From NCBI RefSeq assembly GCF_037975245.1, contig NC_092577.1, forward strand, positions 18,467,898 to 18,531,897: a stretch of DNA of 64,000 bases. Direction: 5' to 3'. This document shows, one piece after another, positions 14,068-52,146 of the stretch (positions are counted from its first letter, which is position 1; each line of letters starts with the position of its first letter). Under the pieces are notes generated by a model. That model saw only the letters and a list, made by a program, of their open reading frames with translations. It was not told where the DNA came from and searched no databases. The stretch comes from Apostichopus japonicus (Eukaryota > Echinodermata > Holothuroidea > Aspidochirotida > Stichopodidae). A program made the translations under genes and the position numbers.

Positions 14068-14950
14068 TTACATGCTAACTGCTGGCCATAATGACAGACA
14101 TACGCCGCAACTGCTCCCGTCTTTCTGCAGAGCCTTTGTGGGTTGTTCCAGGACTGGATTGTGCAACGAAAACTTCGTCATGAAAATGTTGGAGAGCCTC
14201 TGTGCGGCATCTTTTGTTCTCCGGCTTAGAGTTTGGTCGTTTCCGTTCATCAGAGGATCTAGGAAGAGTAGGGTTTTCTTCGCGACGTCCAAGGCAAATA
14301 GAACCCAGTGGTTTCCCGTTGCGTTCCAAGGTATGAAGGCGAAGTCTTTATCGTCAAGGCTTTCAATTGACCAAAGTCTTCTTGTGGATGACCAGTGCAT
14401 TATGGCTGTCATCGTTGTGCTTGGGGCAAATATTAGTCGAGGATTGTCCTCCTGCATCTTCCAAAAAAATGCATTGATGACTTCGTCATAAAGCCAGCCA
14501 GCTCTGAATTCCTTATCCCACACTTTCAGAGCCATTTTTTCTCCGCGGGGCAGGACTGGTTCAAGGGACTTGAGGTTGATAATGTTCAGGGAGTGAGGGC
14601 CATTCCTGACTATGGTTTCTGTGGGATTCATGGAAGGTGGCAAAATAGGCGTGAAGGGCGCATATACGGTTCTTGATGAGAAGTTGGTGGCACCTTTCGC
14701 TGATGGAAACACTGTGTCTGGGACATGTGGAGTGGCTGCAGTCGTTTTTGTTTGCAGTTTCTTTTGTTGTTTTGGCTTGTCCGTCTTCTTGTTCAGAGCC
14801 AGCTTCGACTTCTTTACAGGTGGTGGAGCGACCACTGTGATATCGTTCTTGCTTTCCTCTGGCATGTCTGAGAGAAGGAATTCAAAAGCTCTTTCTTTTG
14901 TGATGCTGTGGGGCCTGTGAAGATTGGCGCTGCAACTTTACGCTTCGGAG
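14068..14950 (-). pseudogene. Ulp1/C48-type SUMO-protease domain of the MULE protein
   Basis: A 265-residue frame. Its N-terminal part is basic and proline-rich (APPPVKKSKLALNKKTDKPK). Its C-terminal part has the Ulp1 triad pattern: NHWVLFALDVAKK (His, then Asp in LLFLDPL) and QKDGSSCGV (Cys). It follows MULE transposase on the same strand and strongly resembles the Ulp1 modules captured by some MULE transposons. Frame changes near 15000 and 14940 separate it from the transposase; an upstream continuation in a shifted frame is readable to 14950. Ulp1 enzymes cleave SUMO from conjugates. The domain itself looks complete, but its linkage is broken. Confidence 0.75.
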
Positions 14951-14985
14951 CTTTCGTCATTGGTCTGAGCTGAAGCTGGAGCTTT

Positions 14986-16890
14986 TCATTCGGCTGTATC
15001 TTTTTGGCGGCGTGCAATAGGTTGGGGCTCTTGTGTCAGTCGGTCATTAGACGATATCACTGCAGTGCATTGGGCAAGCAGACGTTTCAATGTACCATTG
15101 ATTTGGGGTAGTAAAGCCCTGACTACAACCTCGTTCTGTAACATATCCTCTAACTTTGACACATCCAGTTTTGTAGCTTCTAGCAACCGTTCAGGAGGAG
15201 CTGGCTTGGGTTGGTGTTCTTCATTCGGTATGTCTGTTGTTGTAAGAGGAAGCTCATGTGAATACCCTTGAAAATGGTCTGCCGTGTCTGCTTCTTCTAC
15301 CTCAGTCCTGGCGATATGATGCATCCTCACTTGGAAGGCATGGATCTTATGTATATGTTTGCACAACAATGCGTTATCATCACAGTTGCAATGGTACAGA
15401 TGGGAGCAAAGACCAAGACAAGCCAGTTCCTGGCATTTTTCAAAGCAGTGGTCTTGGTAAAATCTTCTCTCCAGGGCTGAAACGGAATGCCAGACGTCAG
15501 TTTGGGACTTGACCCGCCAGGTGTTTGCATCCAACATCTCAGTCTTCATCTTCAGGCCATTCTTGTGCCGCGATTCCTTTGAGGCTGCTGGTCGTGGTGC
15601 TACGGATTTGTACTGAAGGTCGCTCTTTCTACGCCAGTAGTCCTCCTCCTCGATCACCAACAGAAGGTTGATGAGGTCGTCTACTCTCCGATTGGGCTGT
15701 CGCTTCATGAAGTAGGTCTTCAGTCGATTGTGGAACGCCTCAACAAACGTGTTGGTGTCTGTCCTGGCATGAGGGAAATTTCGATGGCACATGGCCCAGG
15801 CTTGTGGTCTGTTCATGTAATTCGAAAATAAATACTTCACGAACGATTCGCATTTTGGAGTATATTTCTCCTTGAAGGGCAGATGTGACTTCGTCGAATC
15901 TGTTGGTACTTTTCTCTTCCAGGATTATAATGAGGCATTGGTAGATTTCTGTTCGGAGGTTGTTATCAGTCGGAATATGGTGCTTAAGCTTCCGTTGCCG
16001 CGCCCTATGAATGTGCCATTTACACAGAATGTGCTTGATGTCCTTACCAAAAACGGCTTTCATGGCATTTGGGCCGCTGTAATCATCATCAGACGTCACC
16101 ACTGCTACGACTAAATTTGGGGCTCGCTTCTTGATCTCTTTAAAGAAGTAGTACAGAGTCTGTTCGTCCGTGTAGTTTGATATCAGGTGGCCAACAGGAT
16201 ATCCCTTGCCAAACTCATCAGGAACAATGAGGTTTGTGAGGCTGTAACCATAATGATTCGTTCCGTGAGTGGCATCAATGCAAAGAATATCTCTTCCATG
16301 CATGACTTCTAGCTGTTGCTTGGTTTGTAGTCCGACTATAAACAGGTCCTTGGCATGGGGTAGATCTCCCATCGCGGGGTCACCAATGAATACACCATCT
16401 CCCTGGGGCTTATAGACTAGTATGGGGTTGTACTTTTCATCTTCAAGCTTGTTTATGAACAGGTACGTGGAAATATTGTCTTGGGGATGCAGTCTCGCGT
16501 TGGTATTGAGCTTCCGGGACATCTCGTGCATTATTCGCTTGCTGATACATTGGTAAGCCCTCAGTTGGCCGACCGCTGTTCCATCACGATTATCCCTGTC
16601 ACCAAGACCGTCGCGTAATTCCCGCCGGATTTGGGTAGTCGGAATGCCTAGCGCAATCTTGCTCTCAATTTCTGTTGTTATCGATTTCGAAATGGGATGA
16701 TGTTGTGTATCCCTGAAAGAGGGTTCATGACTGTGTGTCCGCACGTAAGTTACATCGATCATGCCGCTTTCACTGTTGGTGTGGACTGACATCCTTGCGG
16801 GACAGGTTGTACCAGTCTTTATTTAGCATTTTGTATTTCGTCGATCGGTCTTCCGGGCTGACTGATCCTTAGAACGATGTGGCTGTTCTG
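14986..16890 (-). pseudogene. MULE (Mutator-like) transposase with SWIM finger, frameshifted
   Basis: The N-terminal segment has a DNA-binding FLYWCH/FAR1-like remnant (YYVCQRDG ... GTTCPARM ... VRTHSHEP). The DDE core follows: ILCIDATHGTN (first Asp), VVTSDDDYSG (second Asp), then CKWHIHRA. The lower frame (15840-14986) continues with FVEAFHNRL (candidate third acidic residue), DYWRRKSDLQ, and a SWIM finger CNCDDNALLCKHIHKIHAF. The frame shifts once near 15870, where both frames overlap, and a stop lies between the FLYWCH-like part and position 16792. Together with the C2H2 exon, Ulp1 and PHD parts it forms one multi-domain transposon protein of roughly 1,000 residues. Terminal inverted repeats were not found by eye. 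Confidence 0.85.
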
Positions 16891-17628: not shown

Positions 17629-18672
17629 CTACACACGTGGTCTTGATTACTCCCGCGAAAAAGTTAGGCTTCGAATTGGCTATAAGATGTAATTGCCGGG
17701 CGCTCTATCACACGTGGAAGGGGCGCGCGCACCGGCAAGGAATTCGAAGAAATTGTAGCTTGTTCTACTCACACTTTGGTAGTAAATATGACGCAGATCT
17801 TCTGCTAAGTTTTTCTGGTCCGGGAAATGTCCCGCCTTATAACTAAGTTCGACTCGTGAGCATCATGTACGTTTATTTCCGGAAAAACAAAGTCGTCGTT
17901 TTCGGCCTCAGGGTGGGGGGGGGGCATTGCCCTGGAGTACGGTACCCTGGAGGGAAATGGTCCCGGGGGGTATCTGGGGGAATCCTCTAAGGAGATGATG
18001 GGGTGTACTGTGGGGGAATGAGACCGCGGAAGGCGGGAGGCCGCGGATGAGTGTAAGTAGACCCTAAATAGCCTAAGCTATAAAATGATTAAATCAATAC
18101 AAAGTGAGAAGTAAGTATATATACTTGTTTATTTCGTAATCAAACAGAGTTGAATACAGATGAGGTGCAATTTGAGTGGATACTATTTACAAAAAGGCAG
18201 GTGCATAGTGCAGGTACAGGGTGATTACTGTGACATACAGTGATATAGAAATTCCACACTAGACGGTTATCAATTTGTACATAGATATTCAAGTATGGTG
18301 TGTGTCAATTTCTCCTCTCGTTAAAAAGTCACACCCATAGTCCCCTAGCTTGAAGTAACTCTCTTATATGATCCCCCCGTCGAATCAACTTTTCATCATT
18401 CCAATAGTGCACCCCCTAATATCAAATCTCTGAGCGAAGAAAACATCCTTTATCACACAGTACTTGTTGCAGATACAGAAGTCCCGGGACAGAAGTTAAA
18501 CATTATTGCACAAAAGCATCTACAAAGTCATTCAAAAGATACTTAATTGATTTGAAAGTCCGAAATGTCGACAAAAGCACGTGGCAGATTAAATCTATTA
18601 TTAGATCTCACGCTCAATTCACTTCGTGAATGTTCGGTATTATTCGGCCATGTATTACGTCGTTTCCATCAT
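17629..18672. other. No gene seen
   Basis: Contains a G-rich zone (17910-18050) and AT-rich sequence. No coding frame with recognisable content and no clear MULE terminal repeat. Confidence 0.4.
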
Positions 18673-18680
18673 GGCGGCTA

Positions 18681-18938
18681 GCGTATTTTTTTTCCCAGGA
18701 CGAACGTGGGCATCTGCCAATGAAATCCCTGGATTCCAAACATGTGGCGCTTTTTCAAAAAACATGTTTTGAATCTTTTTTCCTAGTTTTCACCCCAGAT
18801 TATGAACGACAATCCTGCAATTTCATAGAAACTGTATCCTTAACCCACTTTCTAAACCCTCACTCTGATTTCAAACGAATTTGTAAATTCCTGAAAAACC
18901 TGAAACCCACGTTCGTCGTGGCGGAAAAAAAAAACGCT
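18681..18938. mobile_element. 258-bp MITE with 8-bp target-site duplication
   Basis: Inverted terminal regions: left GCGTATTTTTTTTCCC then GGACGAACGTGGG; right, read inward, AGCGTTTTTTTTTTCCG then CGACGAACGTGGG. GGCGGCTA occurs directly on both sides (18673-18680 and 18939-18946). No coding capacity. The superfamily is unassigned; an 8-bp duplication is compatible with hAT. Confidence 0.7.
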
Positions 18939-19080
18939 GGCGGCTATTGGGAGCTTTCGCTCCCCTGTGCAAATTTTTCCGTTTTTGGGGCGGTTTGCAC
19001 CTACGTCGGTGGGTCCCGGCGCTGTTTAGCAACAGAGAACCGCATAGCAGTACTCCAAACAGGGTGGTGCGTCTCATTTG

Positions 19081-20058
19081 CTCCGCTCTGATTGAGTTGC
19101 CCCCTGTTGACCTGTCACAGCCGGCCCTCGTTCACAGTTCGTTGCGGGATAGGGCCTTGAATGCAATTTTTGTGCATTTGTATGGCTGAATGGTGGCAGG
19201 CTCCGTGATCTTGCATGGAGAATTGCACACGGTGCCTTGGTGACCAACCTAAAAAGACATCTCGGCCTTTTGGCCGATCATGTGTAGTATCTGTTCCCTT
19301 TCGAGGGGAATGGTGATGCACACCTGACGATGATCACACAGTCACAGTCCCGATGTAAGGGTCAACTGGGGTTAGAAGCGGATCAGTCGTTCGGTAGTTT
19401 GCTTTTCGTGCCCAGGTTCTGTCCTGGGCGACTTTTCCTTAAAAAGTATCATTGGCGATTGGGTGATGGACTGTGCCAAAGGACCGGCTGTGACAGCTTA
19501 GAGAGTACCGCTCATGTTTTTTGGCATTGTTGCTTTGTAGTTAACTTATGGGAGTGGTTCCAGACCTGGACCGACCGTGTTACGGGAGACCGTTCATGGT
19601 CGGTAGGACAGGGCTTTATTTTATATGGGGTAGACCCTCCAGTTTGTTCGGTTGGTGTGTTGCACCGCATTATTTTTGTTTGCTTTATTGTGAAAAAAAC
19701 ATGTTTGGCGGAATAGATGTGATGCGGTTTTTAGGGGTAAATTTGCCAGTTGGCAGGCAGTCCTGGAGGCGGTGAAGTCTGACATTCGCCTTCAGATTGA
19801 AGGCGATTTTCGCCGTTTATCCGGGGCTGCCTTTTTTGGACGGTGGTGTGCTGAGGAGGGGTTTTTCGTTTCGCTCCGTGTTGGTCGTCCTTTTGTGTTT
19901 TTTTAAATGTTTGAGTGGGGGGTTGGGCGTTTTTGTCTCTGCAGGTCGGCGGGCGTATGTTTTATTGGCTCGCTTGACCTGAGTTTCGTTTTTCAGAATG
20001 GGATGGTTCGGTAGTGCCGTTTGGCCGTGACGTTTTATATCCCGCATGGCGGGTCATT
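19081..20058 (+). pseudogene. LINE C-terminal fragment (L1/Tx1-like), interrupted
   Basis: Reads RLRDLAWRIAHGALVTNL, then after a 180-bp insertion KKYHWRLGDGLCQRTGC, CDSLESTAHVFWHCC and LWEWFQTW. This is the zinc-binding C-terminal domain (zf-RVT) of L1/Tx1-like ORF2. The downstream part (from about 19600) is nearly the same as 50788-51240. Frameshifts occur after 19716 and in the tail. The 5' side is truncated near the MITE. Confidence 0.75.
19257..19436 (+). ncRNA. U2 snRNA-derived retro-insertion inside the LINE
   Basis: Positions 19261-19295 contain CTCGGCCTTTTGGCC, GATCATG and TGTAGTATCTGTTC. This corresponds in order to the 5' stem-loop I and the branch-point-recognition GUAGUA region of U2 snRNA, with a short gap and a few changes. 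The remainder does not follow canonical U2 beyond this point; it contains a CCC-TTTCGA-GGGG hairpin and a 3' hairpin GCCCAGG-TTCTGT-CCTGGGC (19409-19429). The block splits the LINE frame and is flanked by CCTAAAAAG (19248-19256) and CCTTAAAAAG (19437-19446), which look like target-site duplications. Likely a U2-headed SINE or a chimeric retrocopy made by LINE machinery, not a functional snRNA gene: stem II, the Sm site and stems III-IV are not recognisable. Confidence 0.65.
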
Positions 20059-49540: not shown

Positions 49541-49705
49541 TCACCCACCAGCACTGTTAGAACGGTGGAATTAGCGACTGCAAGATTACAATTTCAAATT
49601 GCCGTACAAACCTGGTTAAGGACAATCCTGCGGAATATATGTCACGTCATCCCATACCAGAAGGGAGCACTGACAATTCAATTCGCATGACCCAAGCTGC
49701 AGAGG
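49541..49705 (+). pseudogene. Gypsy 2 RNase H end/connection
   Basis: Resumes as [28 protein letters not shown] and, after a shift, PAEYMSRHPIPEG, the segment linking RNase H to integrase. About 150 bases of RNase H expected between DREAL and here are gone. Confidence 0.7.
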
Positions 49706-50751
49706 GTTTCTTTTTTCGACACCACTGGCCCGGATCCTTTTCCAATAACCGGCCAAAGGCGACACGCCCTTCTGGGGTCTATACTCAGATTGGTGACTCT
49801 CTTCGTAGAATCAAAGAAGAGGGTGGGCCACATGTTCTGCTGAACGTGGCCCCCTCTGTGTTATACCCAGCATTGTTTCGTTCAATGCTCGCGCATGTGT
49901 GCCCGTCGGCTTGCCGGACCGCCATCTCTCCAGATGTGTGGCGGTCTGTGTGTTGCAAGTCACTAGATAGCCGTCTCAGGGACTTGGCGTGGAGGATTGC
50001 ACATGGGGTCCTCATCACTAACCATTTTCGCCTAGTCAGGTGGCGATTAGGTGATGGGATTTGTCCCCGTGTGGGCTGTAAAGCCATCGAGACTATGCAA
50101 CACCTTTTGCTGGAGTGTCCCGTTGTCCGGTTGGTGTGGGATTGGTTTCACGCCTTCGTTATTGGTGTTATTGGTTGCACACAGTGGGCCATTAGTAGTG
50201 ATTTTGTTTTGTATGGTTTGTTGCCCCCTGTGTGCCCAACCTGGGTTAGGGATCTGCTGTTGTTGTTTGCCGCTGTCATCAGGAGACACATCTGGAACAG
50301 CAGATGCCGCCTAGTTTTCGACGGGGACGTCTGGAGGGCAGAGGATGTTGTCCCCCTCGTGCAGAGTGACATCAGGTTGCGCATGGAGGCGGACCATGCA
50401 CGGCTTCCCGACACTGCCTTTCGTAGACGCTGGCGCAAGCCCGTCGTCTACTATCGGGACGGCGTTCCCCGGATGAAATTTTGAGTTAGTTGGTAGGTGT
50501 GGGGGCTGTGTGGTCGTTACATATTATAGGTTGGTTTAATTTTTTCTTTGTGGTTTGGGGTTGGCTTTTTGGGGCCTGTTTGTAGTGTGTTATTTGTTTT
50601 GCTTCTGTTGGCCTTTGGGTCCGTGCCCTTTTCGCGTCACGTTAAACGCTGCGTTAGTGAGAGATTGATGGGTTTCAGTTGTTGCTTTACAGACTGGGTT
50701 TGTTTTTGGTTTTGTTGACCTTTGGTCCGTTTCTTAGCACGTAAAAAGCCC
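49706..50751 (+). pseudogene. LINE C-terminal copy (L1/Tx1-like) with 10-bp TSD
   Basis: Carries VLYPALFRSMLAHVCPS, RLRDLAWRIAHGVL, RWRLGDGICPRVGC, ETMQHLLLECPVVRLVWDWF (zf-RVT) and a full tail ending KF at 50484. Flanked by GCTGCAGAGG at 49696-49705 and 50752-50761. The 3' terminus reads CACGTAAAAAGC, shared with the next copy. Its frame is open into the gypsy sequence on the left, creating a chimeric frame (49639-50484). Confidence 0.85.
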
Positions 50752-50787
50752 GCTGCAGAGGAACATGTTAACTTCCTACTGGAACAG

Positions 50788-51252
50788 GGCAGGGCTTTAT
50801 TTTATATGGGGTAGACCCTCCAGTTTGTTCGCTTGCTGTGTTGCACCGCATAATTTTTGTTTGCTCTATTGTAAAAAAAAACATGCTTGGCGGAATAGAT
50901 GTAATGTGGTTTTTAGGGGGAAATTTGCCAATTGGCAGGCAGTTCTGGAGGCGGTGAAGTCTGACACTCGCCTTCAGGTTGAAGGCGATTTTCGCCGTTT
51001 ATCTGGGGCTGCCTTTTTTGGACGCTGGTGTGCTGGGGAGGGGTTTTTCGTTTCGATGCGCGCGGGTCGTCCTTTTGTAGTTTTTGGAATGTTTCAGTGG
51101 GGGGTTGAGCGTTTTGTCTCTGCAGGTCGGCGGGCGTATTTTTTTTTTGGGCTCGCTTGACCTGAGTTTCGTTTGTCAGAATGGGATGGTTCGGTAGTGC
51201 CGTTTGGCCGTCACGTTTTGTATCCCGCATGGTGGGTCACGTAAAAAGCACA
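50788..51252 (+). pseudogene. Second LINE tail copy with 14-bp TSD
   Basis: Reads YFIWGRPSSLFACCVAPH, NRCNVVFRGKFANWQAVLEA and RLSGAAFFGRWC, nearly the same as 19600-19990. Flanked by TCCTACTGGAACAG at 50774-50787 and 51253-51266. Ends CACGTAAAAAGCACA. Heavily 5'-truncated. Confidence 0.85.
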
Positions 51253-52146
51253 TCCTACTGGAACAGTCGGTCACGAAAGCGACGACTGTTAAAGGAAATT
51301 CGAGTTGCAAGTTGCGAGTTGCAAGTTTGTGAGTCAGTAGCGCAGTCGTTGATAACACATGGCAGCAAATTCTTCGCGAATGTTCGGATGCTATGATTCG
51401 CATGCTACGATTCGCAAGTTTTATAACATACGTGATGAGCGAAGAAGGACATCTTACTACGCGGATCACGGGTCGTACGTGATACGGAAACCACTCCAAA
51501 TGCATGTCTTGAAACTAGCGCATGAAGGTCATCGGGGACTTGTAAAAACAAAGCAGCCTACTTCGTGAAAAAGTCTGGTTTCCGGATATTGACAAACAGG
51601 CTCAAGAACTAGTCAGTGCTTACCATGTAACGCGACAACCCCTGAGAGGAGTCAGGAGTGTGTAAACATGTCCGAGCTACCCGCAGCTCCATCGGTTTTT
51701 GTGGACCTTTTCCATCCGGAGATTATTTCTTAGTAGTCATTGATGACTACTCGCGATATCCTATTGTGGAAATCCTATTGTGAAAAGTCCACATCGGCCA
51801 ATGCCACTATTCCCATCATTGACAAAGTTTTCTCAACATTCGGTATTCCCCAAGTTGTCAAATCCGACAACGGACCACCTTTTCAAGGAAATGACTTTAG
51901 CAAAGAAAGATATACCCCGTTTGGACACAATCCAGCGCTACTGCGGAACGCTTTATGCGAACAGTAGAAAAGACTATTCGTGCCGCGGTGATCAACAACA
52001 ATCGATCATGGCGTCAGGAACTGCATGTATTTCTACGCAACTACCGTGCAACGCCCCACTCCTTAACCAAAATTTCACCCGCGGAACTTTTATTCGGACG
52101 AAAGTTACGGTTAAACTCCCACAAGAAGAAGCGATTCCATTGCTAT
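51253..52146 (+). pseudogene. Integrase of gypsy element 2, broken
   Basis: H2C2-type start KLAHEGHRGLVKTK (the Cys pair is lost, YHVTRQ), then KVFSTFGIPQVVKSDNGPPF (second catalytic Asp) and, in another frame, ELHVFLRNYRATPHS and SPAELLFGRKLR. The segment with the catalytic Glu is reduced. Several stops and shifts. It runs directly into LTR sequence at 52144. Confidence 0.75.

Follow-up and report, generated by a model that had tools for sequence, protein, structure and literature searches.

A degraded U2 snRNA-headed SINE copy inside a LINE of the sea cucumber Apostichopus japonicus and the dispersed family to which it very likely belongs

The window analysed here is a 64,000-nucleotide stretch of the Apostichopus japonicus genome (NC_092577.1, positions 18,467,898 to 18,531,897). 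At approximately 18980..20056 on the plus strand it holds a fragment of a long interspersed element (LINE), comprising a C-terminal zf-RVT-type coding region and a 3′ part, which was delimited by its similarity to a second LINE in the window and, judged by eye, to the predicted proteins P0009 and P0012. This fragment is split by a short insert, also on the plus strand, at 19259..19446 (the start may be 19260), with limits drawn from genome matches, most of which span 19259..19446, and from alignment to a family consensus. Within the insert we distinguish a head derived from U2 snRNA, with U2 stem–loop I and the branch-site-recognition region (19259..19296; placed by the RF00004 alignment, a 21-mer and the consensus), a body (19297..19409), a 3′ hairpin with the arms GCCCAGG and CCTGGGC that forms in folds of both the insert and the consensus (19410..19429), and a 3′ tail that ends in CTTAAAAAG (19430..19446), all on the plus strand. 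The window contains this single copy of the element, which has a stop codon in each forward frame; when its forward frames were searched against proteins, 18 candidates came up and none was scored as a relative, and exact-pattern scans of viral contigs gave no match. The body matched neither U2 nor any other Rfam family convincingly in E-value runs of 19000-19700 and of eight other loci.

The first-pass annotation had claimed that the insert begins with the 5′ sequence of U2, and the homology searches bear this out. In an Infernal search of 701 bases (19000-19700), the Rfam U2 model (RF00004) aligned to 19259-19328 with 28.2 bits and an E-value of 0.0011, so that the covariance check proposed with that claim did return U2, though at a score under the Rfam gathering score of 46. 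Because the window copy falls below that score, the gathering-threshold Rfam scan of the whole window listed no family. A 21-base U2 word with one mismatch lies at 19276-19296, and no such word occurred in 100 shuffles of the window. Among eight other loci tested, from the 40 fetched in the genome search described below, six exceed the gathering score and the remaining two reach 44.2 and 37.2 bits. The head of the window copy is worn, and Infernal aligns it to U2 with three gaps, of 3, 2 and 2 nt; the first two gaps could as likely be a 6-nt 5′ truncation, since the BLAST alignment of the window copy to the consensus (94.2% identity over 189 columns) covers consensus positions 7-193 and so begins at position 7.

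The ends of the insert differ from those first proposed (19257-19436): the start is placed at 19259 by Infernal or at 19260 by BLAST against the consensus, and the end at 19446. The target-site duplications claimed to bracket it do not hold up either. The supposed right-hand repeat, CTTAAAAAG, belongs to the element itself, because most genome matches extend to the last or nearly the last query base; other copies of the element have the right-hand CCTTAAAAAG as their conserved 3′ end, and CTTAAAAAG is read in antisense as YFLR in the protein model P0013, discussed further below. The supposed left-hand repeat, CCTAAAAAG (19248..19256, plus strand), is coding sequence of the host LINE at the insertion point, within a region that reads TNLKRYHW, with LKR at this point, in the four uninterrupted proteins of other LINE copies. 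Between it and the head stand the junction bases AC (19257..19258, plus strand), of which the A fits the LINE reading AGA TAT CAT (Arg-Tyr-His) and the base at 19258 is C. Scored for duplication, the flanks of the window copy reach 2, against a median of 3 for mismatched flanks. The insertion of the window copy seems to have been blunt, or its duplication has since been lost.

That the insert interrupts a zf-RVT-type LINE frame, as had also been claimed, is confirmed at the protein level. Joining the two LINE halves while keeping the base A at 19257 yields TNLKRYHW. Twelve protein hits were found among LINE relatives, of which 11 were read and P0003 was left out; ALVTNLKRYHWRLGDGLC is continuous in four of the 11, namely P0009 and P0012 of A. 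japonicus as well as P0008 and P0011, and P0010, which comes from a related LINE, is likewise unbroken at the insertion point. Since other LINE copies run through the site unbroken, the insert is not a normal LINE component, a reading that the four uninterrupted proteins rule out. Uninterrupted host LINE DNA is predicted to read ...AACCTAAAAAGATATCATTGG... at this point, and CCTTAAAAAGTATC at an empty LINE site would fit the earlier duplication reading. The second LINE in the window offers a further comparison: its frame at 49561-50481 shares 42% identity over 105 residues with the host fragment, has a zf-RVT match of its own of 24.5 bits, below the Pfam cut-off of 27.5, and is 96–99% identical to the A. 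japonicus predicted proteins P0001-P0003 over 42–65% of the frame's length, and the DNA at 19605-20056 matches 50786-51239 at 91.6% identity over 455 columns.

Several other features were observed in the window. A 5′-truncated copy of the LINE also present at 19605-20056 occupies 50774-51266 and has TCCTACTGGAACAG on each side (50774-50787 and 51253-51266), likely a 14-bp target-site duplication. Just upstream of the host LINE fragment, at 18671-18947, inverted repeats of ∼42 bp (83%) enclose ∼195 bp in what looks like a small inverted-repeat transposon. At 14071-16822 on the minus strand, a MULE transposase frame adjoins a Ulp1-type protease frame, and the two possibly form one protease-encoding MULE element.

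The element recurs widely in the genome. We searched the window's own assembly (671,581,487 bases in 35 contigs) with a match threshold of E ≤ 0.001 and, with 40 of 2,652 first-look candidates scored, obtained at least 49 matches, the window copy included, on at least 19 contigs. The other 48 of the matches listed are 85–95% identical to the window copy, and 47 of the 49 listed span the junction between the U2 head and the body. From 40 fetched loci, the window's own among them, 47 copies were aligned, leaving out two partial copies that carry no head. These 47 align across the junction and their flanks are unrelated, which is the pattern that the first-pass annotation had named as support for a SINE family; many of the copies also have target-site duplications. 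A consensus of 193 bp was built from them and consists of ∼45 nt of the U2 5′ end, the unmatched body, the 3′ hairpin and the terminal CTTAAAAAG. One locus, L009, is identical to this consensus (193/193), and an identity to it of at least 95% is reached by 41 of the 49 aligned stretches; because the 40 loci are those that match the window copy best, the divergence among copies is not an unbiased age profile. The family has apparently been active recently. By extrapolation from 49 matches in 40 of the 2,652 candidates, we would guess at a total of hundreds to a few thousand copies; a systematic 200-kb sample (20 × 10 kb) contained none. An additional copy lies ∼0.8 kb from the one that brought in L003, and at L033 a copy agrees with the consensus at all of 170 bases (100%), but its head is rearranged and, it seems, inverted in part. 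The element is thus short (a 193-bp consensus), dispersed and multi-copy (at least 49 matches on at least 19 contigs) and non-coding (stops in all forward frames), as SINEs are, and the junction common to the aligned copies, set in differing flanks, marks a multi-copy family from one U2-headed ancestor, as in the SINEU elements of crocodilians. We therefore regard the window insert as very likely an old and degraded member of a sea cucumber SINE family with a U2 head.

Across the family the origin of the head is clearer than in the window copy. Over its first 46 positions the consensus differs from that of Rfam U2 at 3, 30 and 46 and agrees at the other 43, position 30 being A in U2 and T in the SINE. 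The convincing match stops near nt 45, beyond which the alignment is weak and largely gapped. Many copies lack a few bases at the start, so the first four bases of the consensus were set by majority: among the 33 copies kept for the duplication analysis, the full ATCG of the U2 5′ end is present in eight and at least the G in 19. The head is accordingly that of a small cellular RNA, as in SINEs generally, and more narrowly that of U2, one of the two snRNAs that head SINEU.

The flanks of the copies were analysed for signs of retroposition. Before this analysis 14 of the 47 copies were dropped, these being array members (one was kept for each of two arrays) and loci with near-identical flanks. 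A flanking duplication score of at least 7 was reached by 16 of the 33 kept copies, where mismatched flanks lead one to expect 0.21; the duplications are 7 to 17 bp long, with 11 of the 16 at 12–17 bp, and two of the 16 copies that bear them (at L011 and L019) are outer array members. Over all 47 copies, 17 score 8 or more, compared with 0.95% of mismatched pairs. By the same score a clear duplication is absent from 17 of the 33, and the 3′ flank opens with TA in 26 of the 33. Target-site duplications, as expected of a SINE, are therefore found in the family but not at the window copy, with its score of 2. Head-to-tail arrays occur at five of the 40 loci (L011, L019, L021, L044 and L047), and the other 35 hold a single copy within the stretch fetched. 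The array at L011 has three copies, separated by a 10-bp spacer; this spacer has the sequence of the flanking duplication, which is what later amplification of an inserted copy would produce.

These features bear on other explanations of the insert. With a single copy in the window, it might have been a one-off chimeric retrocopy, made when a LINE reverse transcriptase switched template to U2 once, and LINE-1 chimeras with U1–U6 snRNAs are indeed reported in mammals (PMC13174262). The same U2–body junction, however, recurs in 47 of the 49 genome matches listed and in an independent gene model, and this recurrence refutes a one-off chimera, to which we give almost no credence; of the two possibilities raised by the first-pass annotation, a new U2-derived SINE family and a one-off retrocopy, the former stands. 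Nor is it at all probable that we are dealing with a satellite or array that derives from U2 genes, spreads through DNA recombination and is dispersed only now and then. Head-to-tail copies at five of the 40 loci, such as those at L011, would suit it, and satellites derived from U2 genes are mentioned for sea squirts (PMC4640811), but 35 of the 40 loci are single-copy in the stretch fetched, many with target-site duplications, and the match between the L011 spacer and its flanking duplication fits amplification after insertion.

Somewhat less remote, though still unlikely, is a non-autonomous derivative of a U2-targeting LINE of the Utopia or Keno type, whose head would be the captured target. 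As described for these elements (PMC4640811), in Phytophthora the U2 sequence downstream of Utopia begins at nt 39, a site shared by Keno, and sea urchins and a starfish also carry Utopia; the end of the SINE head at about nt 45 lies near this site. Yet the U2 match does not stop at nt 38 but continues to about nt 45, the duplications differ between copies, and in 26 of 33 copies the flank begins with TA rather than with U2 sequence. The last alternative, a family of functional genes for a variant U2 or another snRNA, we can scarcely credit at all. The length is near that of U2 (192 positions in the Rfam model) and the U2 5′ domain is good, but the consensus scan finds no Sm site, the alignment to U2 after nt 45 is weak and largely gapped where a functional U2 gene would have its 3′ stem–loops, and the copies are dispersed with target-site duplications.

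For the SINE family, then, insertion by way of RNA is favoured by the duplications and by the U2 5′ ends; the LINE and the promoter are inferred. The transcript would be a chimeric RNA that starts at the U2 5′ end and carries the SINE body, and a LINE protein would reverse-transcribe such RNA in trans at nicked target sites, by target-primed reverse transcription. A simple scan of the consensus found neither an A or B box nor an Sm site, though diverged boxes may exist, and TTTT occurs at consensus positions 15, 150, 180 and 181; an internal polymerase III promoter was thus not recognized by this A/B box scan. Because the scan found no A or B box and the element has internal TTTT runs, its source transcripts more probably come from read-through or from an external, U2-type RNA polymerase II promoter than from polymerase III acting on an internal one. 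On this reading, the LINE that received the window copy was decaying, and the insertion apparently left no duplication. We compared the tail with the 3′ end of the host LINE: for one copy of that LINE the score is 36, at the limit of chance beside a mean of 19.5 and a maximum of 37 in 500 shuffles, and for the other it is only 26, the 95% point of the shuffles; among 8,457 window tiles these alignments rank 6th–7th and 110th or lower.

The family also affects gene models and repeat annotation. The last 55 residues of P0013, an A. japonicus gastrin/cholecystokinin receptor-like model, match the antisense of 19281-19448 at 50 of 55 positions when two frame shifts are allowed, in a stretch that includes the element's 3′ end. 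Since these residues align to antisense SINE, the C-terminus of P0013 is retroelement-derived or the model is wrong. The 2023 assembly paper (PMC10344927) gives SINEs as 0.02% of the genome and counts 996 splicing snRNA hits, some of which could be copies of this SINE. For annotators, U2-like matches in the A. japonicus genome may be SINE copies, and at least one receptor model ends in antisense SINE. SINE heads are usually internal polymerase III promoters (PMC7245038). U2-headed SINEs seem to have no such promoter, and therefore the question they raise is how they are transcribed and how they succeed. The A. japonicus family, one copy of which equals its consensus and whose host animal is accessible, adds what is apparently another independent instance for testing where the promoter comes from, which loci are the source and which LINE is the partner.

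To our knowledge, jumping elements with a front end copied from U2 are rare. Target-site duplications are a property of SINEs headed by tRNA, 5S or 7SL, as they are of the A. japonicus SINE. Those SINEs likewise consist of a small-RNA head, a body and a tail, but their head is an internal polymerase III promoter (PMC7245038), of which the A/B box scan found none here. The snRNA/LINE-1 chimeras of mammals also place an snRNA at the 5′ end of a target-primed reverse transcription insertion; they are described as independent events (PMC13174262), whereas in A. japonicus one chimera gave rise to a multi-copy family. Utopia and Keno LINEs similarly tie U2 5′ sequence to a retroelement, with the difference that U2 is their target (PMC4640811) and in the A. 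japonicus SINE is the mobile part, carried to unrelated sites. SINEs derived from snRNA are mentioned for avian and crocodilian genomes (PMC8010984). Our literature search, which covered the titles and abstract openings of open-licence papers, found no echinoderm U2-headed SINE. We tentatively propose, at a little short of an even chance, that a U2-headed SINE arose independently in echinoderms, was recently active and, lacking an internal polymerase III promoter, multiplied from a few source loci under the control of a U2-type polymerase II promoter. If an independent echinoderm origin is true, snRNA heads would be a repeatable route to the birth of SINEs outside reptiles. The closest known kind is SINEU of crocodilians, reportedly a group of SINEs headed by U1 or U2 snRNA (Kojima 2015). 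As in the A. japonicus SINE, the head of SINEU is the 5′ part of U2 snRNA and not tRNA, 5S or 7SL; the hosts differ, being crocodilians there and an echinoderm here, and the two are likened by the description of the head, not by the sequence of body, hairpin or CTTAAAAAG. Judging from its host, the sea cucumber family probably had an origin separate from that of SINEU, and it is a U2-headed SINE of the SINEU kind.
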